Below the pieces are notes generated by a model that saw only the letters and a list, made by a program, of their open reading frames with translations, was not told the DNA's origin and made no database searches. From Cryobacterium algoricola (lineage in GTDB: Bacteria; Actinomycetota; Actinomycetes; Actinomycetales; Microbacteriaceae): DNA of 64,000 bases. Positions 19,657 to 53,433 of this stretch are shown one piece after another (the stretch's first letter is position 1; every line of letters starts with the position of its first letter). The stretch spans positions 124,001 to 188,000 of the forward strand of contig NZ_SOFG01000023.1 in assembly GCF_004402485.1 (NCBI RefSeq), read 5' to 3'. Made by a program: the position numbers and the translations under genes.

Positions 19657-19696
19657 CTCGTCCCACCCTGCCCCGACCGCTGGGCACCGTCGGCTA

Positions 19697-19824
19697 GCGA
19701 AACACCCGCGAATCGGCGTAACACCCGCGCTCGATTCCGCCACCGGTTGGAGCCGCGCCGAGCGCGGGTGTTCCGCCGCTGCGCGCCTGGTCCACCACCC
19801 GCGCACCGGCGAAACACCCGCGCT
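19697..19824. repeat. Cluster of GGCGAAACACCCGCG repeats upstream of tRNA-Arg
   Basis: The motif GCGnAACACCCGCG occurs at 19697-19710, 19715-19732 and 19808-19824 in direct orientation, and inverted at 19760-19777. The second and third units form an 18-base inverted repeat with one mismatch around a 27-base loop. It occupies most of the space between the lipoprotein gene and the tRNA. It may act as a terminator or hairpin for the lipoprotein gene, or be a dispersed repeat. Confidence 0.7.
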
Positions 19825-19901
19825 GGATGTCGGACGCGCGCTCGGGAGGATGCCGGTGCGAACAACGACTCCCCGATGCTGGTAACCTAGTGTTTTCCCT
19901 G

Positions 19902-19973
19902 GCCCCCATAGCTCAGGGGATAGAGCACTGCCCTCCGGAGGCAGGGGCGGCAGTTCGAATCTGCCTGGGGGCA
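19902..19973 (+). tRNA. tRNA-Arg (anticodon CCG)
   Basis: The cloverleaf folds completely: acceptor stem GCCCCCA with TGGGGGC, anticodon stem CTGCC/GGCAG around the loop CTCCGGA (anticodon CCG, reading CGG codons), and T stem GGCAG/CTGCC around TTCGAAT, with discriminator base A at 19973. CCA is not encoded. The 3' half from 19933 on is the attachment site of the integrated element and is supplied by the element's own copy, which keeps the tRNA functional. Confidence 0.96.
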
Positions 19974-19975
19974 CA
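19933..19975 (+). other. attL: left attachment site inside tRNA-Arg
   Basis: This 43-base segment spans the anticodon loop to the 3' end of the tRNA and recurs without mismatch at 26472-26514. Such tRNA 3'-end identity blocks are the usual crossover sites of tyrosine integrases. The integrase at 22217-23386 lies between the two copies. Confidence 0.92.
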
Positions 19976-20017
19976 TCAATGAATTCCTGATCGGAAGCTA
20001 GTTCGTTTCAGGAGATT

Positions 20018-20098
20018 TCAGCCCAGAACTGCTCGTGGCAACATTTTGGCAACACTTTTCTGACTGCCGACCTGATCGAGCGCCGTCAAAACGGCCCG
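20018..20098 (-). pseudogene. Remnant of an integrase C-terminus next to attL
   Basis: On the minus strand this reads ...AVLTALDQVGSQKSVAK and then MLPRAVLG before a stop at 20020-20018. It matches the tail of the intact integrase in this element (SSALDQLIIQKSIAS). No upstream integrase sequence is attached, so this is a fragment of an earlier integrase whose 3' end abutted the attachment site. It also contains two TGGCAACA direct repeats (20036 and 20047) spaced 11 bases apart. Confidence 0.7.
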
Positions 20099-20225
20099 AA
20101 ATGCGTCCCAGAATCTGCACGCACTCATATCGGCAACGGTCGCACTAAGGCAGTCGTCCTGATCCCGATGTGCGTTCACGTCAAGCGCGGGCTGGGTCGA
20201 TCGCCCTCGACAGTAGGCTCAAGCC

Positions 20226-20675
20226 ATGATTCGCCTGCGTAAGACGCGTTGGAAGGTCGCCTACATCCTTGTCGGGGTGATCGCGCTGGCCGCAATCGAA
20301 ATTGCGATCCAGCCGTTGATGATCTTGAATCCGATGTCGGCCGTGGTCGCAAACTCGCTGACTGTCCTGCTCTATTTCGGAGGGGTGCGATCCTTCCGCG
20401 GAGTGGGCGAACCGATAGAACCACCCCGCGCCTGGTGGAGGATGACTTCCCGGCCCCGAGCCGGATACATCATTGGATCGCTCCTCGTACTGAGCTCCGC
20501 CAATGGCGTGCTCGTTGCGATGACTGGGCCACCGGAATTGATACTCAACGTCGCGATCAGCGTAGCGGTCGATGCATCACTGGCGTTCCTTTACTTCAGG
20601 TCCTCTACCCGGCTCCGAAAAGCGCCACCGCGCACTGTGCAAGAAGTGCCGCGCTGGAAGCCCCTCAAGAGCTAG
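20226..20675 (+). CDS. Small integral membrane protein, function unknown
   Basis: 149 residues. Probably four membrane helices (VAYILVGVIALAAIEIAI, VVANSLTVLLYFGG, AGYIIGSLLVLSSA and VAISVAVDASLAFLYF) with a basic N-terminus and a proline/lysine-rich tail. TAGGCT at 20214-20219 lies 6 bases before the ATG, so it may be leaderless. No family recognised. First cargo gene inside attL; a TA-poor gap of about 70 bases separates it from the exonuclease gene. It could be a holin-like or accessory protein, but nothing specific supports this. Confidence 0.65.
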   Translation: MIRLRKTRWKVAYILVGVIALAAIEIAIQPLMILNPMSAVVANSLTVLLYFGGVRSFRGVGEPIEPPRAWWRMTSRPRAGYIIGSLLVLSSANGVLVAMTGPPELILNVAISVAVDASLAFLYFRSSTRLRKAPPRTVQEVPRWKPLKS

Positions 20676-20743
20676 CTCTATTGAGCCGATACCTCGATGC
20701 CGGTTTCCGAATCGAGCGGCTTTGGAAGTCATACGATCAACGT

Positions 20744-22123
20744 ATGGTCGACGAGCGCTCAACTTCTACGGTTCCTGCCGGTTGGTACAACGACGGCACT
20801 GGTACCGGCACGATCCGATGGTGGGATGGCTCAGCATGGACGAACAACGTCCAGCCCGCTCCCGACGCGCCGACACCGCGACCATCCACACCGCACGGTT
20901 TCGGTTTTGCCGTCATCGACTTCGAAACCACCGGCCTCTTCCCCGGCGGCCACGACCGCGTCGCGGAAGTAGCCGTCGTCCACGTCGCTCCAGACGGCAC
21001 GATTGAGGGCCGCTGGGACACCCTGATCAACCCCGAGCGCGACCTCGGCCCGCAACACATCCATGAAATCCAAGCCCGAGACGTGCTGTCGGCGCCCACC
21101 TTTCGGGACGCCGCGCCTGAGCTCATTGCACTGCTGTCCGGTCGTGTCCTCGTCGCGCACAACGCGAACTTCGACACCCGATTCCTGGACGCAGAACTGA
21201 CCCGGCTGGAGTATGACCCAGGCGTGACGATCTCTGCAATCTGCACCATGGTGCTTGCCACCGATATAATCCCCGGCGCCGGGCGGTCACTCGCGGATTG
21301 CTGCGACCACTTCGACATCGACCTGACCGGCGCCCACCGCGCTTCGGTCGACGCCCTCGCTACCGCTTCGTTGCTGTCCGCGTACATGCAGGCGACTCCG
21401 GACTGGGCCTTGTGGGCGGACGCTGTCGGCAAGGCGGCCACCGCACCCTGGCAGCCCATGGCCCCATCCGGTGTCCCGTGGAAACCTCGACCGGAAGCGG
21501 ATGCGCCCAGCATCCATTTCTTGGAACGCATCTCCAACCGTCTGCCAGCGCATGACGGACCTGTTGACGAGACCACCTACCTCGCTCTTCTCGATCGGTG
21601 TCTTCTCGACCGTCTCATCTCAGAACATGAATCTGAGGATCTAGTTCGTGCCGCTGTGCAACTTGGTCTCGGTCGCGACGACTGTGAGCGCCTGAACCTG
21701 CATTACTTCAGCAGCCTCGCCCAGGTGGCTTGGGCCGACAGCGTCATTACCGCTGAGGAGTCCGCCGACTTGCAGGCTGTCGCCCACCTGCTTCACCTTC
21801 CCGACTCGGTCCTCGATGACGCTCTCTGCGCACCACAGATAGCGACTGCACCGGGTCCGGCTGCCACCGGAACGATCAACGCAGAAGGATTCCATTTGCT
21901 CGCAGGCGATGTGATCGTCCTCACCGGCGATATGCGCCGATCCCGAGAGGCCTGGACCATCGACCTTCAAGCACGCGGGTACATTGCCGGAGGATGCATC
22001 TCCAAGAAGGTGAAGCTCGTCGCCGCCGCCGATCCCGACTCCCTGTCCGGCAAAGCACGGAAGGCTCGCGACTACGGCATCACCATCGTCAGCGAAGAGG
22101 GGCTCGCTCGCCTACTGGGCTGA
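20744..22123 (+). CDS. DUF2510 - DEDDh exonuclease - BRCT protein
   Basis: 459 residues from the ATG at 20744 (TACGAT 6 bases upstream); the longer open frame from 20249 overlaps the membrane gene. N-terminus carries a DUF2510-type motif (AGWYNDGTGTGTIRWWDGSA, residues 11-30), then a DnaQ-like exonuclease with the DEDDh residues visible in FAVIDFETTG, LVAHNANFDTRF and HRASVDALA. A helical middle section of about 130 residues resembles a TerB-like fold, and the C-terminus is a BRCT domain (GDVIVLTGDMRRSREAW ... GITIVSEEGLARLLG). Probably trims 3' ends in repair or in processing of the element's DNA. Confidence 0.85.
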   Translation: MVDERSTSTVPAGWYNDGTGTGTIRWWDGSAWTNNVQPAPDAPTPRPSTPHGFGFAVIDFETTGLFPGGHDRVAEVAVVHVAPDGTIEGRWDTLINPERDLGPQHIHEIQARDVLSAPTFRDAAPELIALLSGRVLVAHNANFDTRFLDAELTRLEYDPGVTISAICTMVLATDIIPGAGRSLADCCDHFDIDLTGAHRASVDALATASLLSAYMQATPDWALWADAVGKAATAPWQPMAPSGVPWKPRPEADAPSIHFLERISNRLPAHDGPVDETTYLALLDRCLLDRLISEHESEDLVRAAVQLGLGRDDCERLNLHYFSSLAQVAWADSVITAEESADLQAVAHLLHLPDSVLDDALCAPQIATAPGPAATGTINAEGFHLLAGDVIVLTGDMRRSREAWTIDLQARGYIAGGCISKKVKLVAAADPDSLSGKARKARDYGITIVSEEGLARLLG

Positions 22124-22216
22124 CCCGATCGTTGCAGTGAACGTGAGCTCGACGGTTTCTGTCACCTCAGTAAGCGATCGAGAGTCCGAGCTTCATGCCC
22201 GAGTTCAAGGACATGA

Positions 22217-23386
22217 TCAGAATTCTGTTCCGGCTGGCTGCCGTGGATCCCCGATCGCCTCGGTATTCAACGACGCGATGCTCTTCTGGATGATGAGTTG
22301 ATCGAGCGCCGACGAAACGGCATCCAGGTCGCTGTCGAAGAGATCTGAGTACACGTCGAGGGTCACCGCCGCGGAGGCGTGTCCGAGCATCCTCTGCACC
22401 GCCTTGACGTTCGCCCCCGCGCTAATGGCCAGGCTCGCTGCCGTGTGCCGCAGTTCGTGCGGGGTCAATCCGGCGATGCCGACCTGTTCCGCTGCGGCGT
22501 CGAGCCATCCTCGGCGGAACACCCTCCCACGCAGCCAACCACCGCGGGCCGCCGCGAACACCGGCTCCCCTCCCTGCCGACCGTCGACGAGTAAGCGCAG
22601 GTCCGCGAGGATCGACGCCGGCACAGGGATCGAGCGAGCCTCGTAGTCCTTGGGCTGGCCTTCGATCTGTAACCCGTCGATCTCGACCACGGTGTGCTGC
22701 ACCTCGAGCCGGCCACGCACGAAGTCGATGTCCTGCACCCGCAGCCCGGAGGCCTCGCCCCAGCGCAGCCCGCAGTAGGCGAGGACCTTCACGAGCAGCC
22801 CGTAGCCGTTGGAGTGCCCAAGGTACATGCCTCGCCCGATCGCGTCGACCGCCGCGGTCAGGTCCCGCACTTGCTCATGCGTCAAGTAGCGCTTGGATGC
22901 CTTGTGCATCTTCGGCAGGTTGAGGCCGTGCGCCGGATTGCTTGCGAGCCTGCCGTCTTTGACGGCCATCTGCAGGCTCCCGGACAGCACGTTGACGATC
23001 TTGCGCACGCTCGCCGGTCCCTGCGTTCTGGACAGTCCACTCGCCCAAGCCTGGACGGCCTGATGGTTGAGGGCGCCGAGCGGGTAGTTGCCCAGCTGCG
23101 GCCGGATGTGCCGAATGACGATGCCGCGCGCCCGCTCTCGGGACGTGGCCCGCCAGTCCGAGCGGCTATCCATCCAGAGGTCGAGCCACTCCCCCACGAG
23201 CACCCGTGCTTTCGAGGGATCGACGTAGGCTCCGCGGCTCTTGTTGACCTCGATGTTCGCGAGGAAGAGTTCCGCATCACGCTTGGTTCGGAATCCGCGC
23301 TTCTGCGTCTGGATATGGTCCGGCCGGCGATAGAGCACCCGATACCGTTTGCCCGAGGCCACTTGATAGGCGGTGATGCTTCCCAC
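22217..23386 (-). CDS. int: Tyrosine recombinase / integrase of the tRNA-Arg element
   Basis: 389 residues from a GTG at 23386 with AGGAG 7 bases upstream. N-terminal AP2-like arm-binding segment (YRVLYRRPDHIQTQKRGFRT), SAM-like core-binding domain, then the catalytic domain: first arginine in YCGLRWGEASGLRV, HELRHTAASLAISAGA, GHASAAVTLDVYSDLF with the nucleophile tyrosine in DVYSDL. All catalytic residues are present, so it should be active. It reads toward attL, but 2.2 kb of cargo lies between it and the att site. No excisionase gene is visible just upstream. Confidence 0.95.
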   Translation of the reverse strand: MGSITAYQVASGKRYRVLYRRPDHIQTQKRGFRTKRDAELFLANIEVNKSRGAYVDPSKARVLVGEWLDLWMDSRSDWRATSRERARGIVIRHIRPQLGNYPLGALNHQAVQAWASGLSRTQGPASVRKIVNVLSGSLQMAVKDGRLASNPAHGLNLPKMHKASKRYLTHEQVRDLTAAVDAIGRGMYLGHSNGYGLLVKVLAYCGLRWGEASGLRVQDIDFVRGRLEVQHTVVEIDGLQIEGQPKDYEARSIPVPASILADLRLLVDGRQGGEPVFAAARGGWLRGRVFRRGWLDAAAEQVGIAGLTPHELRHTAASLAISAGANVKAVQRMLGHASAAVTLDVYSDLFDSDLDAVSSALDQLIIQKSIASLNTEAIGDPRQPAGTEF

Positions 23387-23744
23387 GATCCAGCTCCTGT
23401 CCGAGTCGATGTCGAGGTCATCTTCCCCCGAACGACCGACACCCGACTGGTTCGATCAATCGCCGGAATGAGGTCGAATCATCAACCTGCTTGAGTCGTC
23501 GCAATGATCGTGAGCACAACTACCACGACGGTGAACACGGCACCAATCAGCCACACTGCCACGCGCGGACACCAGCTGTCCGGGCCGGCCTAGGAGCGCC
23601 GAAATTTCCCGCAGCTCTGGGCAACAGTTCCATCTGCTCCTCGGGCAAGCGGCAGCTACCGAACCATGGCCGCGCAAGAGCTAGCGGATGGTGAAGCACT
23701 GGACTTCAGCCCGTACGTAAACCGCGCTTTTGGGACAATGAGGT
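23387..23744. other. Intergenic stretch upstream of the integrase
   Basis: No convincing gene. On the minus strand near 23500-23575 a short hydrophobic reading (VAVWLIGAVFTVVVVVLTII, about 26 residues, GTG start) precedes a TGA; it could be a micro-peptide or chance. No excisionase-like helix-turn-helix was found. The right part is the promoter region of the gene at 23745. Confidence 0.4.
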
Positions 23745-24386
23745 ATGGGGATTCAAATTCCGGACAGGATCTGGCTGGGCATGGACGACGCGGGGATGGG
23801 AGGCGCTGAAGTTTTCGGCACGGTAACAGGCTGGGTCGACACCGGTCATCAACAGCCGAGCGCAGTAATCGTACTTGACGCCCCCATGTCCGCAAGGGGC
23901 CCGCTCGTCGGGACTGACGAGCTAACCGGACGCACGGGCTCTTTTCTCCTTTTATCGCAGCGTTATGTGAGTAGGACCTGGGATGAGGACGAGGGAGTCG
24001 TCCAGGTCACGCTTTTCAGCCGAGACCCGCACGTTCCAACCGAGGTTGGTGTCTGGATAGACCCTCGCGGTGTGTATAAACGCCGAACCGAGATCACACT
24101 CGAATGGTGGCCAGACTATGGGGCCGGGCCGTTGTGGCGAAGCTCGGGGCGAGGTGGAGCGCCTGCCGAACTTGAATCACTCGCCCTCTCCGATGGGCTC
24201 AAGAACAGGCTGAGGGACTGGAACGACGGATACGAAGAAGAAGCGCTTCCTATCGACGGTCCCGGCAAACCAGCCTGGCTTTCCGAGGGAATTACGCTGC
24301 TTGCTCTAGCCAGAAAAGAACTAGTCGGGGTGGCGGTCATCCTGACCACCGAGCCGTGGTGGGGCGAAACGCCCTCTGAGCCTTGA
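23745..24386 (+). CDS. Protein of unknown function in the tRNA-Arg element
   Basis: 213 residues, soluble and acidic, no signal peptide or membrane helix. Rich in tryptophan (WLGMDD, TGWVD, LEWWPDYG, EPWWGE). The first half is beta-rich and the second half helical (GLKNRLRDWNDGYEEE). It resembles immunity-like or small hypothetical proteins found alone in genomic islands, but I recognise no family and see no catalytic signature. Transcribed toward the repeat region; no promoter motif stands out. Confidence 0.6.
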   Translation: MGIQIPDRIWLGMDDAGMGGAEVFGTVTGWVDTGHQQPSAVIVLDAPMSARGPLVGTDELTGRTGSFLLLSQRYVSRTWDEDEGVVQVTLFSRDPHVPTEVGVWIDPRGVYKRRTEITLEWWPDYGAGPLWRSSGRGGAPAELESLALSDGLKNRLRDWNDGYEEEALPIDGPGKPAWLSEGITLLALARKELVGVAVILTTEPWWGETPSEP

Positions 24387-24530
24387 CGACGAACCTGTAG
24401 AACCCGATTCTTCAGAACAGGCTGTTGATTTCACTGAAGCACATGCCCAGTACATCCGTCTTGTTTGCAATTTCGACGAACTTCCGTCGGTCGCTTGCTA
24501 GCCTCCGCGTCTCACACCCCCAATCGTCGT

Positions 24531-24635
24531 AAGCCCCCATTCCCACTCTCCCCGTCCCCAGTCCTCCTTTCATTGTTCTTTCTTCATTTCTACTTACCTT
24601 TCCTCCAAACTTTCCATTTCTATTTCCCTGATCAG
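24531..24635 (+). other. Long pyrimidine tract
   Basis: About 100 bases of the plus strand are overwhelmingly C and T (for example CTCCCCGTCCCCAGTCCTCC and TTTCTTCATTTC), with strong strand asymmetry unlike the rest of the window. It runs straight into the nested inverted repeat. An open frame on the minus strand (24412-24672, TTG start) is a by-product of this composition. Such tracts can unwind, form triplexes or mark replication and transfer origins. Confidence 0.7.
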
Positions 24636-24740
24636 TCACCACACCTTTACTTCCCAACCCCCCCCCACACAATGCCGTTGGGTGTGGGGGGGGGTTGGGA
24701 AGCGAGCGCAGCGAGGGTGTGGCGGCTGATCAGGGAAATA
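24621..24740. repeat. Nested inverted repeat (120 bp) with C9/G9 arms
   Basis: Outer arms TATTTCCCTGATCAG (24621-24635) and its exact complement (24726-24740) enclose a perfect 21-base inner inverted repeat, 24650-24670 and 24682-24702, whose arms contain nine consecutive C and nine G around an 11-base loop. The outer arm ends in the palindrome CTGATCAG. Between the arms CACCACACC and GGTGTGG also pair partly. The whole segment can fold into one long cruciform. There is no coding sequence in it. It could be an origin (double- or single-strand), a transfer origin or a strong transcription insulator. Confidence 0.85.
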
Positions 24741-24752
24741 ACCTCTCAAACC

Positions 24753-24804
24753 ATTCGTTTGCCTATTCGCTCTCAACGAATAGCCAAACGAATACCCAAA
24801 CGAA
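24753..24804. repeat. Iteron-like CAAACGAA repeats
   Basis: ATTCGTTTGCCTATTCG (24753-24769) pairs with 24777-24793 with one mismatch. The unit (G/C)CAAACGAA appears three times: inverted at 24754-24762 and direct at 24784-24792 and 24796-24804, the last two spaced 12 bases. They lie between the large hairpin and the HTH-gene promoter, so they may bind the HTH protein or a replication protein. Confidence 0.65.
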
Positions 24805-24845
24805 CAGGTCTAGGGTGGGTAGCACGCCCGACCAGTTACGCTGGT

Positions 24846-24861
24846 ATATCTACTTAGATAT
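24846..24861 (+). promoter_or_regulatory. Palindromic operator over the HTH-gene promoter
   Basis: ATATCTA-CT-TAGATAT is a perfect inverted repeat 24 bases before the start of the HTH gene. TATATCT within it resembles a -10 element. This arrangement suits autorepression by the downstream HTH protein, as in toxin-antitoxin operons. Confidence 0.65.
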
Positions 24862-24884
24862 GTCGGGGAGAGGTCGGTGATTGA

Positions 24885-25460
24885 ATGAGCGCATCAGTTC
24901 TGCTCCGCGCCTCGCGACAGAGTCGCGGTATCAGCCAGGCCGATCTCGCTGCCCGCGCCCTCACGAGCCAGCCCGACGTCTCTTCAATCGAGAGCGGTCG
25001 CAGAGTCCCCACCGTCGACACTCTGGAACGTCTGCTGCAGCAGACGGGCCACCGTCTCGTCGCTGTCCCAGGCATCGGGCCGGATGCTGTCGACACCGCC
25101 GATCGGATCGCGAGCGCTCTCCGCGGGCCAGGACGAGATGCCGCTTTGCGTGCCTTCCTCGACTACTCCGACCAGCTCGCACGCGTGACCGGTGCCGACC
25201 GTGTCATCCTGACTTTCGTCGAGCCAGCCCCAACCGGGTCCGCCGCGTGGGATGCCGCCCTGGCCGCCGTCGCTGAGCACTGGCTCAGTAAGGGCAAACT
25301 ACCCAAGGCGCGCTGGATCAACGACCCGAGTCGGTTTCTTCCCAGCCCGCAGTCACCGCAGCTCGGCGAGTACGACCTCGAGCCCGACCCGACCAATGTG
25401 CCGCTTGCATTCCTACGTCGCAACGTCCTCCTCGAACAAGCGACCCTGGCGAGCATCTGA
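24885..25460 (+). CDS. XRE-type HTH protein (antitoxin-like regulator)
   Basis: 191 residues. N-terminal Cro/C1-type helix-turn-helix at about residues 4-56 (LLRASRQSRGISQADLAAR, ESGRRVPTVDTLERLLQQTG), then a linker and a conserved C-terminal domain of about 85 residues (LTFVEPAPTGSAAWDAALAA, PKARWINDPSRFLPSP). HTH proteins with this tail commonly precede a toxin gene. Here the stop (TGA) overlaps the ATG of the next gene, so the two are coupled. The palindrome at 24846-24861 is a likely self-operator. A second, headless copy of the C-terminal domain lies at 30165-30425, outside the element. Confidence 0.8.
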   Translation: MSASVLLRASRQSRGISQADLAARALTSQPDVSSIESGRRVPTVDTLERLLQQTGHRLVAVPGIGPDAVDTADRIASALRGPGRDAALRAFLDYSDQLARVTGADRVILTFVEPAPTGSAAWDAALAAVAEHWLSKGKLPKARWINDPSRFLPSPQSPQLGEYDLEPDPTNVPLAFLRRNVLLEQATLASI

Positions 25461-26293
25461 TGGTCGGACCAGTTGAAAGAAACGAGGTCGATCCTCTCGA
25501 GATCGCCGCGTGCCACTTAGTCGCGGGAGACCTTAGGTCGGAGGACTTGCCAGACCTGGCCTCAGACGCTCTGGTGAGGGGTGTGGACAGTCCATCCCTT
25601 CGAGTTCTCGCGGGTCAGGAGAGAGGCGATGTGCGAGAATCACGCGATCTCTTCATCAGGACGCTCACGGAACTGAATATCTCCCTTCCTGATACCGATG
25701 ACGCTCTCTGGGAGCTGACCCGATCAACGGCACGGGCGATCGTTGCAGGGACCCAGAGCCCGGCGTCTGGTGCCGAATACATTTGGCGAACGACTTCATA
25801 TGACGTGAACGAAGGTGGCGATTTACGCATCTTCATTGGGCTGGCATCCGAGTTGCAGGACCATCCCGAAGGGAGCGCCTCACTAGAACGCCTGATCGTA
25901 GCCGCTGCCGAGGAGCTACTCCTGCGGCCAACGCCGCGGCGTTGGATCAATGTCCGCGCATCCCTTACGGGTTCGCCCGTTGCCCGCTCTGGCCACACTG
26001 GCCACACTGGCCACACCGATGTGATGTTGACGGATGAGCCAATTTGCTCCCAACTTGTGGCTGACCTCGAAGCGTGGAATTCCGTTTATCGTGCCGTGCT
26101 CGAGGGTTGGCCGGACATGGGTGGCTTCCGCTCTGAGCTGGAAGCAAGAAGATTTGTAGCCGATGGCCTTCAGCTCGCTGCAAGACTCCAAGACGAATTG
26201 GGGCCGTCGCATCATGTTGAATATTCACCAGAACCGGTGCGCCTACCTGGTTTGAAGCTCTTGACCCGACAACGTGGTCGACGCAGGCGGTAA
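25460..26293 (+). CDS. Partner protein of the HTH operon, function unknown
   Basis: 277 residues. An N-terminal region (EIAACHLVAGDLRSEDLPDL, VDSPSLRVLAGQ) resembles a short conserved segment of uncharacterised actinobacterial proteins. A helical middle is followed by a C-terminal half that carries three tandem copies of a 9-base repeat (GGCCACACT, near 25990-26020) read as HTGHTGHTD, and it ends in basic residues (LLTRQRGRRRR). No nucleotidyltransferase or nuclease motif is visible. By position it is the effector or immunity partner of the HTH protein, but that is inference only. Confidence 0.65.
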   Translation: MVGPVERNEVDPLEIAACHLVAGDLRSEDLPDLASDALVRGVDSPSLRVLAGQERGDVRESRDLFIRTLTELNISLPDTDDALWELTRSTARAIVAGTQSPASGAEYIWRTTSYDVNEGGDLRIFIGLASELQDHPEGSASLERLIVAAAEELLLRPTPRRWINVRASLTGSPVARSGHTGHTGHTDVMLTDEPICSQLVADLEAWNSVYRAVLEGWPDMGGFRSELEARRFVADGLQLAARLQDELGPSHHVEYSPEPVRLPGLKLLTRQRGRRRR

Positions 26294-26471
26294 CAAGCCT
26301 CGCTGTCAGACGGGAGCGGGCGTCTCCGACTCACGACCTCATTCTGTGGCAACGAAATGGCAACACTTGAGCGAAAACCGGCCTGATTCAGACCGATACG
26401 GCGTGATCATAATGTCCTCTCAATCAGGACTTTCCCTAAATCGGCGAAGCGGCGAATGGGCCCAGTTCGCT
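26294..26471. other. Right inner end of the element
   Basis: No gene. Contains TGGCAACG at 26347 and TGGCAACA at 26358 in direct orientation, spaced 11 bases, the same arrangement found just inside attL (20036 and 20047). This suggests integrase arm-binding sites at both ends. Confidence 0.55.
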
Positions 26472-26514
26472 CTCCGGAGGCAGGGGCGGCAGTTCGAATC
26501 TGCCTGGGGGCACA
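26472..26514 (+). other. attR: right attachment site (partial tRNA-Arg)
   Basis: An exact 43-base copy of the tRNA-Arg 3' end, without the 5' half of the tRNA, so it is not a functional tRNA. It is followed by sequence similar to that right after the intact tRNA (AATTCCTGAT(C), then a GGCAACACTTTTCTGA block), implying that a related element lies or lay to the right. Confidence 0.92.
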
Positions 26515-26760
26515 CCAATAAATTCCTGATCAGAAGTCAGTTCTTTTTCAGGAAACTTCAGCCCGAAACCGCCAGTGGCAACACTTTTCTGAGCCACGAG
26601 CTGATCGAGCACAGTCGCAATGGCATTCAGGCGGTTGTCCGCTCTCTCCAGCGCACATTCTGCGCCATCCGGCGAACGTCTTTGGAGGCAATCGTGCCGC
26701 GGTCAATCTCTACTCTTCCGCTGATTACGTCGTCTCTACGCAGCAGATGCGAAAGCGCCT
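26515..26760 (-). pseudogene. Second integrase-tail remnant beyond attR
   Basis: On the minus strand, 26641-26572 reads ADNRLNAIATVLDQLVAQKS and then VAT, matching the end of the intact integrase (ALDQLIIQKSIAS) and the remnant beside attL. The flanking 70 bases after the att copy also resemble the left inner end of the element. No further integrase sequence is attached. The rest of the stretch up to 26760 has no gene. Confidence 0.65.
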
Positions 26761-27022
26761 GTGACAACTGGTCCTTGGCGTTGCTAGTTTCGTAGGCATG
26801 AACCCACTCGTCCCGACTGACCTTGACGTCGCGTTCACCACGATTGCGATCATTGTCGGTGTCGCCCTACTGGTGGCCGTGTTTGCCATCGCAACGTGGC
26901 TCCTGTCGACGGACCGGGTCACCTTTCGAGCCTCGAAGCGGCCACACGCGGGCGCGATCCGGTCACCTCGGGCCTGAGCCGCCGTAATGCACGAGGTGAT
27001 AGAGCGCTAGCGAAACAGTCCG
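26761..27022 (+). repeat. 262-bp direct repeat, copy 1
   Basis: Matches 39270-39531 closely over its entire length, including a -35 (GTGACA), an 18-base spacer, a -10 (TAGTTT), a 59-codon gene and about 45 bases after its stop (ending AGCGCTAGCGAAACA). Similarity stops abruptly on both sides. The two copies are in the same orientation 12.5 kb apart. Confidence 0.9.
26798..26977 (+). CDS. 59-residue single-pass membrane peptide, copy 1
   Basis: Starts MNPLVPTDLDVAF, has one membrane helix at about residues 14-36, and a basic Arg/Lys-rich tail ending RSPRA. A TAGTTT box 7 bases before the ATG, and GTGACA 18 bases further up, predict a leaderless transcript. The copy at 39307 differs at only five residues (8, 19, 46, 50, 51) and retains the promoter, so both are probably expressed. 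Comparable short membrane proteins occur in actinobacteria, but no function is known to me. Confidence 0.75.
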   Translation: MNPLVPTDLDVAFTTIAIIVGVALLVAVFAIATWLLSTDRVTFRASKRPHAGAIRSPRA

Positions 27023-27110
27023 ATAGACGTCGGAACGCACGACCTAATATCCTGGCTGAGGGCAGATTTCCCGCCCTCAGCCCAGCACTCTCAAGTTCGC
27101 AGGTGGGGAC

Positions 27111-27296
27111 ATGTCCAAGAAAGTGATCTACTTCGTCTTAGCAATCTTCACCGCACTGATCTCATTCGCCAGCCTCTACGCCGGACTCCTCGCTCGAGAC
27201 AGCCTGCAGATCGTGCTCGCGATCCTCGGCGTCGTGGCGATCGCTGCAGCGGGCGGGCTCATTGCCCTCGGAATGAGAGCGAATCGTGAGGGATGA
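27111..27296 (+). CDS. Small two-helix membrane protein
   Basis: 61 residues, two membrane helices (IYFVLAIFTALISFASLYAG and VLAILGVVAIAAAGGLIAL) and a short basic tail. The stop (27294-27296) is followed directly, in the same frame, by an ABC-ATPase fragment. It may once have been the first gene of an ABC-exporter operon. GGTGGGGAC precedes the ATG and could serve as ribosome site. Confidence 0.65.
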   Translation: MSKKVIYFVLAIFTALISFASLYAGLLARDSLQIVLAILGVVAIAAAGGLIALGMRANREG

Positions 27297-27299
27297 GCC

Positions 27300-27452
27300 G
27301 TCATCTCAATCCACGATTTGACCGCGCGCTACGGGGAACACGCCGCAGCGCGCGATGCCGCCTTCTCGATCGAACGCGGGCGTGCCGTCGGTCTTCTCGG
27401 TCGCAATGGCGGCAACAAAGGCCACAAACCTGCGGTGCTTTCCTGGGGCTGA
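27300..27452 (+). pseudogene. ABC transporter ATP-binding protein, N-terminal remnant
   Basis: Reads ISIHDLTARYGEHAAARDAA and SIERGRAVGLLGRNG, the A-loop and approach to Walker A of an exporter-type ABC ATPase, but the motif breaks down right at the P-loop (GNKGHKP instead of GAGKST) and a stop follows at 27450. Everything downstream of Walker A is missing. The 27453-27650 stretch that follows shows no ABC or other gene. Confidence 0.75.
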
Positions 27453-27650
27453 ACATTCGGACTTCGGGCGAGTGCCGAATTCTGGGTCGACGCATCCTCT
27501 TCTGCCTGAATGAAGTTCGGAGTTCCCCGAAGGAAGCTCAACCGAGCTCCGTTTGCCATCGAAAGGCTGATCTGCGGCCACCTTCGGTTTCAGCACGCCG
27601 TGCGCTGAGGGCGAACCGACCGTTCCTCGCCGCTCTGATGCACTTAGCTG

Positions 27651-28634
27651 TTGAGCGTGACGCAGACACTCATTCTCGGTGGGACGGCCTGGCTCGGCCG
27701 CGAGATCGCCCGGCAGTTGATTGAGGCGGGCGACGACGTGACCTGTCTGGCGCGCGGCGAGTCGGGGTCGGTGGCCGCGGGCGCAACGCTTGTTCGCTCT
27801 GACCGGCGAGCGTCAAACGCTTACGCGGCAGTCACGAATCGCAACTGGGACGACATCATCGAGCTCAGTTGTGAAGCATACCTCGTCGGCGGGGCTCTGG
27901 CGGCTCTAGCCGATACCACCCCGCATTGGACGTTGGTGTCTTCCGTCTCCGTGTACGCAAGCAATAGCGAAGCGGATGCCGATGAAGACGCCGCTCTCGT
28001 CGAGCCAACCGACATGGCCGAGTACGCCCACGCCAAGGTCGCCGCCGAACGGGCCACGGCCCGGGCCGTCGGCGACCGTCTACTCATCGCCAGACCCGGT
28101 CTCATTGCGGGGCCGGGCGACACCAGTGACAGGTTCAGCTACTGGGTGGCTCGCCTGGCCCTGGCCTGGCACGAGCCTGTCCTCGGACCCGACACTCAGG
28201 GCCGGGCCGCGCAGTTCATCGACGTCAGGGATCTTGCTGCCTGGATTATCGCTGCCGGTCACCGCGGTCTCACGGGCACTTACAACGCTGTCGGCACGAA
28301 ACGAGAGCTCGCAGTCGTTCTCGCTGCTGCACAACAGGTCGCAGGCCACGACGGCGCACTGATCTCGGCGGACGACGACTGGCTGATCGCACACGACGTC
28401 AATTATTGGGCTGGGCCTCATTCGTTGCCGCTCTGGCTCCCGCGCAGCGCGGATGCGTTCTTCCAACGCGGTCGCGAACGATTCATCGAATCCGGGGGTA
28501 CGGAACGAAGCCTCCACGAGACCTTGAGCGATGTACTTGCGGACGAACGGATTCGCGGCCTCAACCGAGAACGACGCGCAGGTCTCACCCGACAAGACGA
28601 ACTCCGCCTCCTCGACGAACTCCGCAACAGCTAG
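27651..28634 (+). CDS. NAD(P)-dependent epimerase/reductase-like protein
   Basis: 327 residues (TTG at 27651; a GTG at 27657 is equally possible). Extended short-chain dehydrogenase fold: glycine-rich LILGGTAWLGREIARQL at the N-terminus, TLVSSVSVYA with the catalytic serine region, and YAHAKVAAERA with the Tyr-x-x-x-Lys pair. The middle and C-terminal parts match the isoflavone-reductase/epimerase-like family used in sugar or cofactor chemistry. No neighbour indicates a substrate. Convergent with the sigma-factor operon that follows. Confidence 0.85.
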   Translation: MSVTQTLILGGTAWLGREIARQLIEAGDDVTCLARGESGSVAAGATLVRSDRRASNAYAAVTNRNWDDIIELSCEAYLVGGALAALADTTPHWTLVSSVSVYASNSEADADEDAALVEPTDMAEYAHAKVAAERATARAVGDRLLIARPGLIAGPGDTSDRFSYWVARLALAWHEPVLGPDTQGRAAQFIDVRDLAAWIIAAGHRGLTGTYNAVGTKRELAVVLAAAQQVAGHDGALISADDDWLIAHDVNYWAGPHSLPLWLPRSADAFFQRGRERFIESGGTERSLHETLSDVLADERIRGLNRERRAGLTRQDELRLLDELRNS

Positions 28635-28697
28635 CGCAACCGTCCAAGGGCACCTGTCGACCCTTTCGGCTCAAGCATCAGTCTGAGAGCGCCTCGT

Positions 28698-29225
28698 CTA
28701 GGTTCGAAGATCAAGACTCGGCGCAGCATCAGTCGTCAAGGCAGCGAGCAGGGCGAGTCGCGCCCGACGGTATCTTGCCCGCACTGTTGCGGCCGGAACG
28801 CCCTGCAACCGTCCGATTTCGGCCAGGTTGAAGCCTTCCCAATGTAGGAGAGTCACAACTTCCGCGAGATAAGGCTCGAGCTGATCGATGAGTTCCCGAA
28901 TCGCCACGACTTCCTCGGCATCGAGCTCAACTTCCGTCCCGACGAGTGTGGCTCGGAGCGCACTTCCGAGCTCTCCGCGTCGTCGCTCGCCTCTGGCGTA
29001 ATTTCGAAGGAGATTGCGGGCTATCCCGAAGCACCACATTCTCGCTTGTTCGTGATCGGCTGGGAGTTGCGCCTGTTTGCGCCAGACGGTCACCATGACC
29101 TCGGCGACCAGATCAGCTGCATCGGCGCCGACTCGCCGTTGAAAGTATCGCAACAGCTCAGGCCCGATTTCGCCGGCGACTGAGAGGAATTGTTGTTCAT
29201 AGTCGTCCTGCCCCCGACGTCTCAC
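28698..29225 (-). CDS. ECF-type RNA polymerase sigma factor
   Basis: 175 residues from the GTG at 29225, which overlaps the stop of the upstream gene (GTGA). Region 2: ELLRYFQRRVGADAADLVAE, TVWRKQ and ARMWCFGIARNLLRNYAR. Region 4: LAEVVTLLHWEGFNLAEIGR followed by VPAATVRARYRRARLALLAAL. Shorter than housekeeping sigma factors, as expected. It is the downstream partner in the operon, after a membrane protein that may be its anti-sigma factor, the reverse of the usual order. Confidence 0.9.
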   Translation of the reverse strand: MRRRGQDDYEQQFLSVAGEIGPELLRYFQRRVGADAADLVAEVMVTVWRKQAQLPADHEQARMWCFGIARNLLRNYARGERRRGELGSALRATLVGTEVELDAEEVVAIRELIDQLEPYLAEVVTLLHWEGFNLAEIGRLQGVPAATVRARYRRARLALLAALTTDAAPSLDLRT

Positions 29226-29929
29226 TGAGTGGCCCCGGTGCACTGCTCTTGACTTTGATAGCCGAACCCAGACTCTGGGATGCCCAAAGACTCGAAGTGC
29301 TCCTCCATGCCGACCTGAATGGCCTGCTTGACGGCCATGTTGTACTCGACGTCGGCGCTGTAGTTGTCTGTGCCGTATCCGAATGGCACCTCTGTTCCGT
29401 CGCCCGCTTGAGCCCAATTCTTGTCCTTGACCCGCATGGAGGTGATAGTGCCTGCGACGTCCACGAGCGTCAGCAAATTCGGTGTTTGCAGGAACTCTCG
29501 AGCCGTCTGCTCAGCCCTCGGATCAGCGGCAACCCCCGCCGGCCCGCCCGGGTACGCGCTGTCAGGAACGACGCCAAAGCGCATCTCGCACGTGCCCCCG
29601 CCGGGCAGACTGTAGGTCACTGTCGCGTCTGGGGCCTGTGCCCACTCGGCCCACTGAGGCGCGTTGTGCCACATCTGCGACCAATCGATGTTTGTCGCGG
29701 CGTACGCCGCACCCGCCGCGCCGAGCAACAAGAAGGGGGCAACGATCATCGCAACTAGGCCGAGCTTTCGGCGAGGGCGCGCCCCACGGGAGTCAACGAT
29801 CGTTTGGGCCATCGCCGCAAGCTGATGTCGGATCTCTGTCGTCGTCTCAGTCGTCGGACGGGCGGCACGAGATAGCAGTGCGACCAGTTCGTCGTCTGTC
29901 TCGACCGCATTGTCGTTGTCCTGAGTCAT
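29222..29929 (-). CDS. Single-pass membrane protein, probable anti-sigma partner
   Basis: 235 residues from the ATG at 29929 with GGAGG 5 bases upstream. Cytoplasmic acidic N-terminus of about 55 residues (ELVALLSRAARPTTETTTEI), basic stop-transfer side, one membrane helix at about residues 58-80 (LVAMIVAPFLLLGAAGAAYA) and an outer domain of about 150 residues with two cysteines (GGTCEMRFG, QEQCTGATQ). The cytoplasmic helix segment could bind the co-transcribed sigma factor. No zinc-binding ZAS motif is visible, so the anti-sigma role rests on context. Confidence 0.6.
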   Translation of the reverse strand: MTQDNDNAVETDDELVALLSRAARPTTETTTEIRHQLAAMAQTIVDSRGARPRRKLGLVAMIVAPFLLLGAAGAAYAATNIDWSQMWHNAPQWAEWAQAPDATVTYSLPGGGTCEMRFGVVPDSAYPGGPAGVAADPRAEQTAREFLQTPNLLTLVDVAGTITSMRVKDKNWAQAGDGTEVPFGYGTDNYSADVEYNMAVKQAIQVGMEEHFESLGIPESGFGYQSQEQCTGATQ

Positions 29930-30164
29930 GTGCGCCTCCGTTGCGTAAAACTGCATTCATCCAGTTCATGTCCGCACCAGGCCAAAGCGATGCCGCGAGC
30001 CGCTTCTTTCTTTAGTCTTCGGAAACTCGCGGGGTTTCGTCGGGCACAGCGAAGAACATTTCAACGCACGCTCATCTCATCTTGGCATCCAGCTGCTGCA
30101 CCGTCCTCCAGTTCGCCACGCTCGCTTTCCCGCTGCAAGCTCCTCGTCTCCCGCCTTTCTCCTC

Positions 30165-30425
30165 ATGGTCATCCTGACTTTCGTCGAGCCAGCCCCGTCT
30201 GGGTCCGCCGCGTGGGATGCCGCCCTGGCCGCCGTCGCCGGGCACTGGCTCAGCAAGGGCAAGCTGCCCAAGGCGCGCTGGATCAACGACCCGAGTCGGT
30301 TTCTTCCGAGCCCGCAGTCACCGCAGCTCGTCGAGTGCGACCTCGAACCCGACCCGACCAATGTGCCGCTGGCGTTCCTGCGTCGTAACGTGCTCCTTGA
30401 ACGAGAGACGCTGGCCAGCGTCTGA
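30165..30425 (+). pseudogene. Headless copy of the HTH-protein C-terminal domain
   Basis: 86 residues starting MVILTFVEPAPSGSAAWDAA, closely matching residues 107-191 of the protein at 24885-25460, including PKARWINDPSRFLPSP. The HTH is missing. Nucleotide similarity begins at 30169 and ends about 12 bases after the stop. The next reading, ATG at 30425, gives MAGPLDLHDLSS and a stop, the start of a different partner gene, then nothing more up to 30695. The 29930-30164 side is also without a gene. It is a broken second module rather than a working antitoxin. Confidence 0.8.
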
Positions 30426-30695
30426 TGGCCGGCCCACTCGATCTCCATGACCTGTCTTCGTGAGGTCGTGAAGCGAGCGCGAGAGAATTCCGGAGAACAC
30501 GAGTCAGACACCGGCAGTCGCGAAGTTGAATCCGACCCAGTGTTTCCGTATCCACGAAACGAATCGTCCGCGAGTCAGGGCGCCAATCTATCCCGAGGCT
30601 CCAAAGAATTTACGGTGAGCTACGGAGCCTCGTTCTCTGAGGCAAGTCGGCCGGCTTGCTCAGGGAACCAGTTCTCGCGGTCGGTGCAGCACCGA

Positions 30696-47463: not shown

Positions 47464-49602
47464 TCACAAGGTCACGGAATCGGTCACCACATTCGACGGC
47501 GCCGGTTCGTGCCGCAGGTAGGCGCGGCGGAACCGGCCACTCCCGGCGGTGAGGGCGCGCAGTTCGATCGCGTACCGCAGCAGCTCCGCGTCCGGAATCT
47601 CGACGGTGATCTCGCTCCGTGCGTCACCGACTGACGTGACACCGGTCAGGTGCCCCCGCCGGGTGGACAGGTCGTTCATCACCGTGCCCACGGAGCCGTC
47701 CGGCACGGTGATCGTCACCACGGAGACGGGTTCCAGCAGCTGAATCCGGCTCGCGGCGGCCGCCTCGCGCAACGCGAGCGCACCGGCGGCCTGAAACGCG
47801 GCATCCGAGGAGTCGACGCTGTGCGCCTTGCCGCCGACCACTGTCACCCGGATGTCGACGACCGGGAACCCCGCGGAAACGCCCTTCTGCATTTGCGCCC
47901 GGACGCCCTTTTCGACCGACCCGATGTACTGGCCGGGGACCACGCCGCCGACGACCTTGTCGACGAACTCGAACCCCGCTCCGCGTTCGAGTGGTTCGAC
48001 GTCGATGTCGCAGATGGCATATTGGCCGTGACCGCCGGACTGCTTGACGTACCGTCCGCGCGCGGAGACGGCCCGGGCGAACGTCTCCCGCAGCGGCGTG
48101 ATGACACCGACGGTCTGCACCTTCACGCCCTGGCCGCGCAGCCGGTCCAACACGACCTCGGCGTGCGCCTCCCCCATGCACCAGAGGATCAGTTGATGGG
48201 TTTCGGCGTTCCACTCCACGCGCAGGGTCGGGTCGACGGCAGCCACCTTCGCGAGGCTCCTGGCCAGTGCGTCCTCGTCACCGTGCGTTGCCGCCTGCAC
48301 GGCGACGGGCATCAGCGGCTCCGGCATCTCCCAGGGAGTGACCAGCATCGGCGTCTCGCGCGACGACACGGTGTCGCCGGTCTCGGCGCTGGACATCCGG
48401 GTGAGCGCGCAGATGTCGCCCGCAACACAATACGGCGCCGGGTGGAGGGCGGACCCCAGCGGGAACTGCAGGTGCGTCACGCGCTCCTCACTGTCGTGGT
48501 CCGTGCGGCCCCGCTCGGCGCTCGCGTGCCCGCCGATGTGCACGGTCGAGTCCTCCCGGATCGTGCCGGAGAAGACCCGCACCAGGCACACCCGGCCGAG
48601 GAAGGAGTCAATGGTCGTGCGCACCACTTCGCCGACGAGCGGCCCGGCGGGATCGCACGCCAGCGGCCCGACCGGCTGCCCGTCCCGTGCCGTCACCGAC
48701 GGCAGGCCGCGTTCCACCGGCGACGGGAATGCGCCGGTCACGACTTCGAGCAGCTCCGTCACGCCCACGCCGGTTTCAGCGGATGTCGCGAGCACCGGCA
48801 AGAAGGACCCGCGAGCGACGGCGATCTCGAGGTCGGCGATGAGGGTGTCGAGGCCGATCTCGTCGCCGCCGAGATAGCGGTCCATCAGCGTCTCGTCCTC
48901 GCTTTCGGCGATGATGCCCTCGATCAGGAGGGCCCGCGCCGACTCGGCGCCGCTGAGCTCGACCTCGGTCGCCGGCCGGCGGACGGGGCGAGGGACGCCC
49001 GCGGTGTAGTCCGATACCGTGCCGGAGAGCAGCCCCAGCAATCCGGTGATCGTCCCGGCCCGGCGAATCGGCAGGTAGAGCGGCAGGACCGAGGAACCGA
49101 AGGCGTCCTGGCACTCCGCCAGGACCGCCTCGTAGCGGGCCCGGGGATGATCGATCCGGCTGATCGCGACGGCGCGCGGCATCCCGATTCGCTCGCATTC
49201 CGCCCACAGCGCGGTCGTGGCGGCGTCGACGCCGTCAACGGCGGAGACGACGAACAGCGCAGCATCCGCGGCCCGGAGGCCGGCTCGCAGTTCGCCGACG
49301 AAATCGGCGTAGCCGGGGGTGTCGAGCAGGTTCACCTTCATGTCGTCGACGACGATGGGCAGGACCGAGAGCGTCACGGAGCGTTGCTGGTGGATCTCGG
49401 ACGGGTCGGAATCGCTCACCGTGGTGCCGTCGAGGATCGATCCCATTCGGTTGATGGCCCCGGTGGCGGCGAGCAGCGCTTCAGTGAGCATCGTCTTACC
49501 GGCCCCCGAGCGGCCGACCAGGGCAACGTTGCGGATCTTTTCCGGACGCTGCGCCGGTGTTGTCGTTCCGATGGACGAGCCGTGTGTGCCTTTTCCGGAC
49601 AT
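47464..49602 (-). CDS. fusA2: Elongation factor G-like protein (EF-G2)
   Basis: 712 residues from the ATG at 49602, close to the mycobacterial paralogue FusA2. EF-G domain order: GTP-binding (G1 GRSGAGKTMLTEALL, G3 DTPGYADF), domain II, III, IV and V. Unlike true EF-G, the G4 box is SRIDHPR rather than NKxD, and the G2 effector region reads QRSVTLSVLP. It probably binds GTP weakly and acts in a specialised translation role. No ribosomal protein genes are nearby, so it is an extra copy and not the main EF-G. Confidence 0.9.
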   Translation of the reverse strand: MSGKGTHGSSIGTTTPAQRPEKIRNVALVGRSGAGKTMLTEALLAATGAINRMGSILDGTTVSDSDPSEIHQQRSVTLSVLPIVVDDMKVNLLDTPGYADFVGELRAGLRAADAALFVVSAVDGVDAATTALWAECERIGMPRAVAISRIDHPRARYEAVLAECQDAFGSSVLPLYLPIRRAGTITGLLGLLSGTVSDYTAGVPRPVRRPATEVELSGAESARALLIEGIIAESEDETLMDRYLGGDEIGLDTLIADLEIAVARGSFLPVLATSAETGVGVTELLEVVTGAFPSPVERGLPSVTARDGQPVGPLACDPAGPLVGEVVRTTIDSFLGRVCLVRVFSGTIREDSTVHIGGHASAERGRTDHDSEERVTHLQFPLGSALHPAPYCVAGDICALTRMSSAETGDTVSSRETPMLVTPWEMPEPLMPVAVQAATHGDEDALARSLAKVAAVDPTLRVEWNAETHQLILWCMGEAHAEVVLDRLRGQGVKVQTVGVITPLRETFARAVSARGRYVKQSGGHGQYAICDIDVEPLERGAGFEFVDKVVGGVVPGQYIGSVEKGVRAQMQKGVSAGFPVVDIRVTVVGGKAHSVDSSDAAFQAAGALALREAAAASRIQLLEPVSVVTITVPDGSVGTVMNDLSTRRGHLTGVTSVGDARSEITVEIPDAELLRYAIELRALTAGSGRFRRAYLRHEPAPSNVVTDSVTL

Positions 49603-49721
49603 GAAGCTCCTGACGTCGTTGTCGCGGCCTTCCCGCACCGTTGTAGTCGATTTGACCCCGGGCCGGACCGGAGGGCAAGGGCAGGGTCGACGGCGGTCCC
49701 CTGCTGTGCGGTCGAACTGGC

Positions 49722-50000
49722 CTAGGCGCTCCGAACGGCCCGGACCGCGACGCCCGCCCACTGCGCTGCGAGATCGTCCAGGGAGAGGTCGAGGGCACCG
49801 GCCAGGGCCGCCACCACTCCGAATGCGGGGCTCGGCAACCGGCCGGTCTCGATCTTCCGCAGAGTTTCCGGGGAGATGCCGGCCCGCGCGGCGACCTCGT
49901 TCAGTGATCGCGTGCTGCGTGCGCTGCGCAGGGTCGCGCCCAGGCGCCGACCCGCCTCGATCTGTTCGGGGGTGAGCGGCAGGCGAACCATCATCATCAA
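49722..50000 (-). CDS. Short XRE-type HTH regulator
   Basis: 92 residues beginning MMMMVRLPLT, with GGAGGAAG as a strong ribosome site. Helix-turn-helix at about residues 14-70 (SLNEVAARAGISPETLRKIE, PSPAFGVVAALAGALDLSLD). No effector domain. Divergent from map; the palindrome at 50023-50038 is its likely operator, giving joint control of itself and map. Confidence 0.88.
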   Translation of the reverse strand: MMMMVRLPLTPEQIEAGRRLGATLRSARSTRSLNEVAARAGISPETLRKIETGRLPSPAFGVVAALAGALDLSLDDLAAQWAGVAVRAVRSA

Positions 50001-50022
50001 CTTCCTCCAGTAACGAGCAATG

Positions 50023-50038
50023 CGGTATTATTATACCG
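50023..50038. promoter_or_regulatory. Palindromic operator between XRE gene and map
   Basis: CGGTAT-TATT-ATACCG. It overlaps the plus-strand -10 candidate TATTAT (50029-50034), which ends 6 bases before the map ATG at 50041, and lies 22 bases upstream of the XRE start. A repressor here would shut off map. Confidence 0.7.
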
Positions 50039-50040
50039 AC

Positions 50041-53409: not shown

Positions 53410-53433
53410 CGGGATCCCGGTATCGTCGACGAG

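Follow-up and report, generated by a model that had tools for sequence, protein, structure and literature searches.

The stretch of DNA considered here, a window of 64,000 nucleotides from Cryobacterium algoricola, contains a small integrated element bracketed by two exact copies of a 43-bp repeat, the first of which is the 3′ half of a tRNA-Arg(CCG) gene (Table 1). At up to three mismatches there is no third copy of this repeat in the window, and 100 shuffles gave none either. The element measures 6,582 bp with both cores, or 6,539 bp from core to core. An earlier note, made from the sequence alone, had proposed just such an insertion, with an intact tyrosine integrase between the repeats and the tRNA kept whole, and all of this holds: ARAGORN recovers an intact tRNA, and the integrase is a 389-aa open frame with a Phage_integrase match at 2.1e-20, in whose translation the catalytic Arg, His-x-x-Arg, His and Tyr, which we take to be the motif of the family, are visible by eye. 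The note's statement that relaxase, replication-initiator and phage structural genes are lacking also stands, since none of these families was found in the six element proteins scanned with Pfam, PADLOC, NCBIfam and PHROGs; the family matches seen there were of the exonuclease to polymerase-exonuclease families and of the XRE protein to phage-type repressors. Nor did we recognise inside the element a coupling protein or type IV secretion system (T4SS) gene (Pfam, NCBIfam, PHROGs and a search for remnants of the two transfer genes introduced below, whose best value, 0.018, was not significant), the Rep and TraB proteins that are hallmarks of actinomycete integrative and conjugative elements (Pfam, NCBIfam), or capsid-remodelling, primase or packaging genes (PHROGs). 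With no transfer or replication gene recognised, the note was right that a helper is needed. TGGCAAC repeats lie towards both ends of the element and are putative arm sites of the integrase.

The earlier note had pointed to related genomes as the place to look for further copies and empty sites, and both are there. Related elements occupy the same tRNA gene in three genomes (G005, G033 and G076, with 0, 0 and 2 mismatches in the right core and core-to-core sizes of 5.3, 9.1 and 3.8 kb; the G033 integrase is broken), and in a fourth (G061) such an element lies at a distance of about 26 kb from the tRNA, with no recognisable left core. Common to all five elements are a left end of about 100 bp, the integrase, the hairpin with its XRE gene and a right end of about 170 bp (the 170-180 bp on the attR side match at 83-91% by BLAST), while they differ in the exonuclease (found only here and in G005), in the gene for the 213-aa protein and in the one that follows XRE. 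Four genomes (G034, G019, G026 and G063) have a single copy of the tRNA core, which runs straight into the flank seen beyond attR in G005 and partly in G061; these junctions were read by eye over 70-nt stretches in 12 comparison genomes, and only that between G005 and G019 (224 nt, 80.8%) is also a BLAST match. BLAST identities of the integrase region are 94.6, 90.5, 92.0 and 89.0% for G005, G033, G076 and G061, and the left flank lies below them each time, at 90.8, 79.7, 79.5 and 78.9%; with G005, the value of 94.6% applies to the left 3.7 kb of the element, the flank standing at 90.8%. The other element parts shared between genomes are 82-91% identical.

The site itself has a busy history. 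Because a second copy of the tRNA 3′ half is present in 12 of 57 Cryobacterium genomes (in G009 and G032 on a different contig from the tRNA), we regard tRNA-Arg(CCG) as a hot spot. The right flank of the window is not plain chromosome and begins by repeating the left end of the element; judged from these matches, the site holds one element plus a decayed relative, whose relic stretch spans 26512-30481. A relative without the element that nevertheless keeps sequences from inside it would, according to the earlier note, speak against the insertion, and there is one such case, C. breve (G064), which retains the tRNA-proximal end and the gene that starts at 20226, with neither integrase nor attR. 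This does count against the picture of a simple site-specific element, although we read the G064 remnant as a decayed relative too. Around the same tRNA we also saw another such duplicate of the left end in G005, some 4.5 kb beyond attR on its right side (L073, 12447), further short att-bracketed inserts of 1.4-7.6 kb in other genomes (L087 in G014, in tandem; L090 in G068; L091 in G078) and, just upstream of the window's tRNA (19691-19828), repeated aaacacccgcg-like units with inverted repeats.

Between the 213-aa gene and the XRE gene lies one copy of a structured module of two hairpins, and it is here, we think, that the element reveals its kin. The stretch 24600-24890 is far more stably folded than shuffled versions of it (z about -10.4 for DNA, -10.7 for RNA). 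With the module's DNA as query, and with reverse-complement self-matches dropped, we found it at 32 places in 18 of 57 Cryobacterium genomes, between one and six in each genome having any, and a covariance model (R1) has matches in 43 of 398 Microbacteriaceae genomes from 19 of 85 genera, six of the 43 being of the window's own genus. Its pairing is conserved: compensatory changes occur in 17 of 60 pairs in an unfitted alignment of 33 copies (the 32 of the genus plus L153), and in an 80-copy alignment from 80 sources, which was fitted to the structure and so favours pairing, 93.6% of cells are paired, against 76.6% in shuffles and 44-52% when slid, and 50 of the 60 pairs have changed on both sides. 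Rfam offered no family at its cut-off, only low-scoring microRNA look-alikes below it. The two hairpins differ in the mismatches that they tolerate, with 91 G-U against 17 A-C cells in hairpin I and 73 against 59 in hairpin II, counts that come from the fitted alignment, whose model scores G-U as a pair and leans towards it. The large excess of G-U in hairpin I suggests that one folded strand is what selection sees, and the near balance in hairpin II that this part may be a double-strand binding site.

Several more familiar roles were considered for the module and set aside. It is not a terminator, in so far as the pyrimidine run precedes the stem on the plus strand when inspected by eye, leaving no T-run after the stem on either strand. 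An insertion repeat of the miniature transposable type fits poorly with so few copies in the genus and with 30 of the 32 lying near integrases, and a regulatory region of the integrase gene or a part of its attP site fits poorly with orientations and distances to that gene that vary, and with plasmids that have the module and no integrase.

What accompanies the module elsewhere is more informative. A tyrosine integrase related to that of the window is found in the fetched stretch at 30 of the 32 places in the genus (the two exceptions being L189 and L186, the latter close to the end of its contig), including all six in the C. algoricola genome itself, and most of the modules sit beside a tRNA gene, the nearest ones including Arg(CCT), Ser, Thr, Glu, Phe, Pro and Met genes. 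Of 19 loci examined, 7 have the 3′ end of the tRNA duplicated over at least 26 nt (at L133 the duplicate lies between the tRNA and the integrase gene), and the att-paired elements that were measured span 3.8-9.1 kb. In other genera, 30 of 40 fetched places have an integrase (two as only partial matches in the class scan), and of the ten without one, seven lie on plasmid-type contigs, where the module is flanked by a rep-like gene and, on its opposite side, by a relaxase-like gene followed by a gene for an FtsK/coupling-protein-like ATPase, which we label rlx and t4cp; their products on these contigs are 234-335 and 616-785 aa long. A protein search with rlx reached 19 plasmid records, from Clavibacter, Microbacterium, Herbiconiux, Gryllotalpicola and Curtobacterium among others and including a Nocardia plasmid, and when the covariance model was run on 10 of these it placed the module near rlx in nine, the miss (L301) being cut by the record end. 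This test is partly independent, since one plasmid, pMSF1, was already known from its hairpin, leaving eight of the nine. At the level of sequence, then, the comparisons establish both an integrated state at the tRNA and a kinship of the module with plasmid and integrative and conjugative element (ICE) loci. Two weaker copies of the module may be recorded here, a second one at a locus of another genus (L227) and one of 52 bits on a Nocardia plasmid, outside the Microbacteriaceae, 1.2 kb from a relative of rlx (L280, 8498-8700).

Taken together, the 72 loci (32 of the genus and 40 of other genera) form a graded series. Seven have rep, rlx and t4cp; 18 have rlx and t4cp without rep (16 with an integrase); nine have rlx in one frame and an integrase but no t4cp; five have remnants of rlx with an integrase; 28 have the integrase and hairpin without rlx; and five have the hairpin alone. 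The genome of C. algoricola contains every integrated stage of this series, with rlx and t4cp at C23:49929, rlx at C23:683723 and C23:505341, a remnant on C25, and neither gene on C18 and in the window. Hairpin I is no worse paired where rlx is lost: with three junction pairs left out, Watson-Crick pairs fill 1038 of 1089 cells (95.3%) in the 28 integrase loci that lack rlx and 1215 of 1284 (94.6%) in the 33 loci with rlx and t4cp or on plasmids, the only two groups compared. Such equality argues that the hairpin is maintained after rlx has gone, as predicted for a cis-acting site that is used in trans. The earlier note had counted the giant hairpin as cargo; the evidence makes it a probable mobility signal instead.

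The rlx products are mostly about 245 aa long. An alignment of 35 of them has W, R, H, D, E, E and K residues that never vary, and a D...E-V-E-L-T-x-K motif that includes the unchanging D127, E140, E142 and K146. No relative of rlx was found in the PDB, and in Pfam single members of the 35 touch Mrr_cat (0.025) and Hjc (0.18) below the cut-offs. The t4cp profile finds FtsK (9e-4), DotL (0.003) and HerA (0.007) as its nearest PDB entries, while a VirB4-like protein gave chance matches only, or none, against the same database. In the C. algoricola genome the rlx/t4cp pair (C23:47133-49792, with the 245-aa rlx product encoded at 49055-49792) adjoins its module (49929-50114) in an ICE-like region, C23:37664-54330, which has relatives of seven of the 11 proteins of pNx66 compared; the five besides rlx and t4cp are 38-60% identical and include AAA_10-like (below cut-off) and M23-type proteins. 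The integrase of this region (53112-54203) lies behind tRNA-Arg(CCT), with an exact second copy of the 3′ end of that tRNA at 54291-54330, between the two. This in-genome ICE is a candidate helper. Elsewhere in the genome is a genuine Replic_Relax protein (73.5 bits; L289, G000:C12:30207-30713), and a second, different conjugative system may be present.

We consider it probable, on this evidence, that the window's element is a relaxase-less integrative mobilizable element (IME), that is, one that carries only an origin of transfer (oriT), and that its hairpin module is an oriT used in trans by conjugative systems. The integrase would excise a circle from tRNA-Arg(CCG); the module would be recognised by a relaxase of the MOBC kind, with a winged helix and a PD-(D/E)XK nuclease fold; the coupling-protein-like ATPase and T4SS of a plasmid or ICE of the same family, resident in the same cell, would move the element; and the circle would re-integrate in the tRNA after transfer, the antitoxin-like XRE gene and an exchangeable cargo, among it a candidate defence nuclease, being carried along. 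Excision, nicking, strand transfer and the choice of helper are steps that we infer. More tentatively, and with a little less than even confidence, we propose that the module represents an undescribed conjugative origin found across the Microbacteriaceae, a two-hairpin DNA conserved in structure, whose folded single strand a divergent relaxase of MOBC-like type would recognise. Plasmids, ICEs and a swarm of tiny parasites made up of integrase and origin would have it in common, the last of these evolving as t4cp and rlx are lost step by step, with all of the integrated stages in one genome.

A number of observations pull the other way. In Pfam, rlx reaches no cut-off, with Replic_Relax at best 0.0021 and in two of the 35 members, and the match of its winged helix-turn-helix N-terminus to a profile built from 12 Replic_Relax proteins (one encoded by C. 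algoricola, 11 by genomes of the order) is moderate (E 7e-5, probability 63); its nuclease motifs line up with the PD..E.D of those proteins only when the settings are relaxed, and forcing a global alignment yields a poor score. MOB-suite is of mixed mind, calling four of the 10 fetched plasmids MOBC and mobilizable and six non-mobilizable, and 11 of all 19 rlx plasmids mobilizable and eight not. On plasmids, moreover, the module sits between the replication gene and rlx, compatible with a role as a vegetative replication origin (oriV) there. As for the helper, four of the 11 pNx66 proteins, the replication-type protein and ParA among them, have no relative in the ICE-like region, no far end or att site was found for it in C23:1-59000 at up to nine mismatches, and its hairpin and the one in the window's element share only 81% identity. 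Of the five genomes that bear the element, only that of C. algoricola has a t4cp homologue, so that in the four siblings help would have to come from a plasmid or ICE passing through. Finally, the hairpin-HTH stretch is 89.9% identical to that of G005, which is below the flank, and the left part is 82.5% identical to that of G061.

The rival that deserves most thought casts the hairpin as an origin of replication (of the double- or single-strand kind) on which a plasmid Rep acts in trans, making the element a replication parasite. Long hairpins are typical of single-strand origins, a rep-like gene adjoins the module on the seven plasmid-type contigs, and its neighbour on pCM1, pCSL2 and pCT2 is annotated as a replication protein. 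At the 65 other loci, however, there is no rep-like gene at all, whereas 32 keep rlx (18 with t4cp and 14 without, nine of these in one frame and five as remnants), so the module follows rlx more than rep, and we judge this account unlikely, with the proviso that an unrelated Rep elsewhere would have escaped us. That the element is a stranded genomic island, its integrase and hairpin mere leftovers and immobile today, draws strength from the relics that are so common at the site (26515-30481, the G064 remnant and the broken integrase of G033); it is nonetheless rather improbable given the exact 43-bp att pair, the intact integrase, the hairpin pairing kept in the class without rlx and the left 3.7 kb, whose closeness to the G005 copy exceeds that of the flank.

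Should the hairpin act instead as RNA, for example as an attenuator or regulatory RNA of a neighbouring gene, the tolerance of G-U over A-C in hairpin I would follow naturally, but the same bias suits single-stranded DNA equally well and is one towards which the fitted model leans. The neighbouring gene varies (rlx, cargo, XRE or integrase gene), the orientation relative to the integrase gene is either one, the module persists at the 28 of 72 loci that have an integrase and no rlx, Rfam has nothing at cut-off, and hairpin II treats G-U and A-C nearly alike, as expected of double-stranded DNA; this reading therefore strikes us as quite improbable. Least credible, and with only a very slight chance in our view, is a phage satellite whose hairpin a helper phage would use as a signal for packaging or replication, the sense in which the earlier note's satellite-like element is not supported. 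Small size, a tRNA site, an integrase and no structural genes all suit it, and one IMG/VR stretch does hold the module, identified by an exact 23-nt pattern; that stretch, however, is in a 49.8-kb record with a 46% relative of the integrase at 43.6-44.7 kb, so that an element probably abuts the predicted virus, a BLAST of the hairpin against 50,697 phage records gave no match, and it is plasmid and ICE genes that the module adjoins.

Beyond the integrase and the module, the element's cargo appears variable and exchangeable. For the exonuclease, PADLOC gives a match to PDC-S48 (E 3e-158), a candidate defence family that no paper found in our literature search names, which makes defence a candidate function, and its C-terminal part matches NAD-ligase PHROGs (1.8e-5); the protein is 97% identical in G005, and homologues of 43-58% are widespread elsewhere in genomes of Cryobacterium. 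The XRE protein is 94-96% identical in the four siblings, and in the slot behind it these have a 190-aa nucleotidyltransferase of the DUF6036 type (the G005 copy passes DUF6036 with 26.5 bits against a cut-off of 23.6), the switch to the window's 277-aa gene falling at a shared start codon. The XRE protein and the nucleotidyltransferase may form a toxin-antitoxin-like pair, of which the window's version would be a partner swap. Nine cargo proteins of other small elements comprise two with NERD domains, one with HTH_3 and the rest with no family above cut-off, and PADLOC, run on 10 such proteins, gave HTH-type matches only, so that a general defence cargo is not supported.

Table 1. Features of the element, its target site and its right flank (positions in the window)
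Feature	Position	Strand	Basis
tRNA-Arg(CCG), intact, integration target	19902..19974	+	ARAGORN
attL core, 43 bp, tRNA 3′ half from the anticodon arm onward	19933..19975	+	exact repeat
Left-end TGGCAAC repeats	20035..20076	+	repeat family D7, 71% vs 26346-26387
149-aa protein, putative membrane protein by eye, no family	20226..20675	+	DNA common to G005, G076, G061, G064
DUF2510 - DEDDh (RNase_T) exonuclease - BRCT-like protein, 459 aa	20744..22123	+	Pfam (BRCT below cut-off)
Tyrosine integrase, 389 aa open frame, reads towards tRNA	22217..23386	-	Pfam Phage_integrase 2.1e-20, SAM-like and arm-binding domains
213-aa protein, no family, between integrase gene and hairpin; absent from four siblings	23745..24386	+	Pfam, PADLOC, NCBIfam, PHROGs, BLAST
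Pyrimidine-rich tract adjoining hairpin; similar composition beside other copies	24536..24620	+	sequence, alignment
Conserved structured two-hairpin module, predicted oriT	24619..24804	+	covariance model R1, 182.8 bits; 80-copy covariation
Hairpin I: long stem, asymmetric bulge	24621..24740	+	folding, alignments
Hairpin II, then CGAATA-type direct repeats; putative protein-binding site	24753..24793	+	folding, alignments
XRE/HTH_3 protein, 191 aa, antitoxin-like	24885..25460	+	Pfam; NCBIfam TIGR03070 below cut-off
277-aa protein, no known family, behind XRE gene	25460..26293	+	Pfam, sibling comparison
Right-end TGGCAAC repeats	26346..26387	+	repeat family D7, 71% vs 20035-20076
attR core, 43 bp	26472..26514	+	exact repeat; attR flank of sibling G005 corresponds to post-tRNA flank of element-free genomes
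Left end of second, decayed related element, right of attR	26512..26624	+	repeat families D2 and D4; BLAST
Relic of second element: 3′ part of HTH gene and start of nucleotidyltransferase gene	30168..30481	+	90% DNA match, 91% protein match

Small islands with nothing but an integrase are often left unexplained; here one structured module links such islands to plasmids and ICEs across 19 of the 85 genera sampled. The graded loss of transfer genes, together with a candidate helper in the same genome, bears on how relaxase-less islands of Actinobacteria move, and the module can be used to search for transfer origins in bacteria among which few have been described.

How does this compare with known systems? 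The phage satellites of the phage-inducible chromosomal island (PICI) and P4 types are likewise small, integrated at tRNA genes, dependent on a helper and possibly provided with defence cargo, but the window's element differs from them in that no capsid-remodelling, primase or packaging genes were recognised and in that its module was not found in phage records. The earlier note knew of no described class for the element, and here the answer is divided: the element fits the concept of a relaxase-less, oriT-only IME, which is already known, while for the type of origin and the helper system our literature searches found no description. These searches turned up no paper joining Microbacteriaceae, 'integrative and mobilizable' and oriT, none joining Cryobacterium, 'integrative element' and tRNA and, among papers on MOBC/TraX origins and Clavibacter plasmid transfer judged by title and the opening of the abstract, none describing the module. 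A 2017 review knew a single IME in Actinobacteria, one with its own relaxase (PMC5704250).

With the ICEs and plasmids of actinomycetes that are moved by TraB and have clt sites (PMC5704250, PMC12857230), the elements discussed here share a host phylum, tRNA sites and an FtsK-related ATPase; they are unlike these one-protein systems for transfer of double-stranded DNA in that no Rep or TraB was recognised in the element, and in that the helper region has relaxase-like, AAA_10-like (below cut-off) and M23-type genes. MOBC relaxases are PD-(D/E)XK enzymes; in pAD1, TraX has its winged helix at the N-terminus, and the five direct repeats to which it binds lie at a distance from nic (PMC12857230). 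The rlx proteins recall TraX and MobC of CloDF13 in their winged helix-turn-helix and PD-(D/E)XK-like motifs, a weakly supported likeness; rlx adjoins a coupling-protein-like gene, as in MobC plasmids and IMEs (PMC5704250), and direct repeats stand at one end of the module, as at the site that TraX binds (PMC12857230). They depart from these systems in falling below the Pfam cut-off for Replic_Relax and in being mostly about 245 aa long, and a long hairpin module is not a feature of the MOBC descriptions compared, as far as their excerpts go. Close counterparts are also the relaxase-less IMEs whose origin is homologous to that of a conjugative element, a known kind that includes iOriT elements and MGIVflInd1, mobilised by ICEs of the SXT family (PMC5704250, PMC11389934). 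The window's element resembles them in its tyrosine integrase, its att pair, its want of relaxase and T4SS, its cis-acting module homologous to that of conjugative elements and its putative helper in trans; it differs in size, the module elements being 3.8-9.1 kb where an att pair was measured against 18-33 kb for mobilizable genomic islands of the MGIVflInd1 type, in its actinobacterial host, in a mobilisation that we deduce from sequence and in a predicted MOBC-like origin built of two covarying hairpins.

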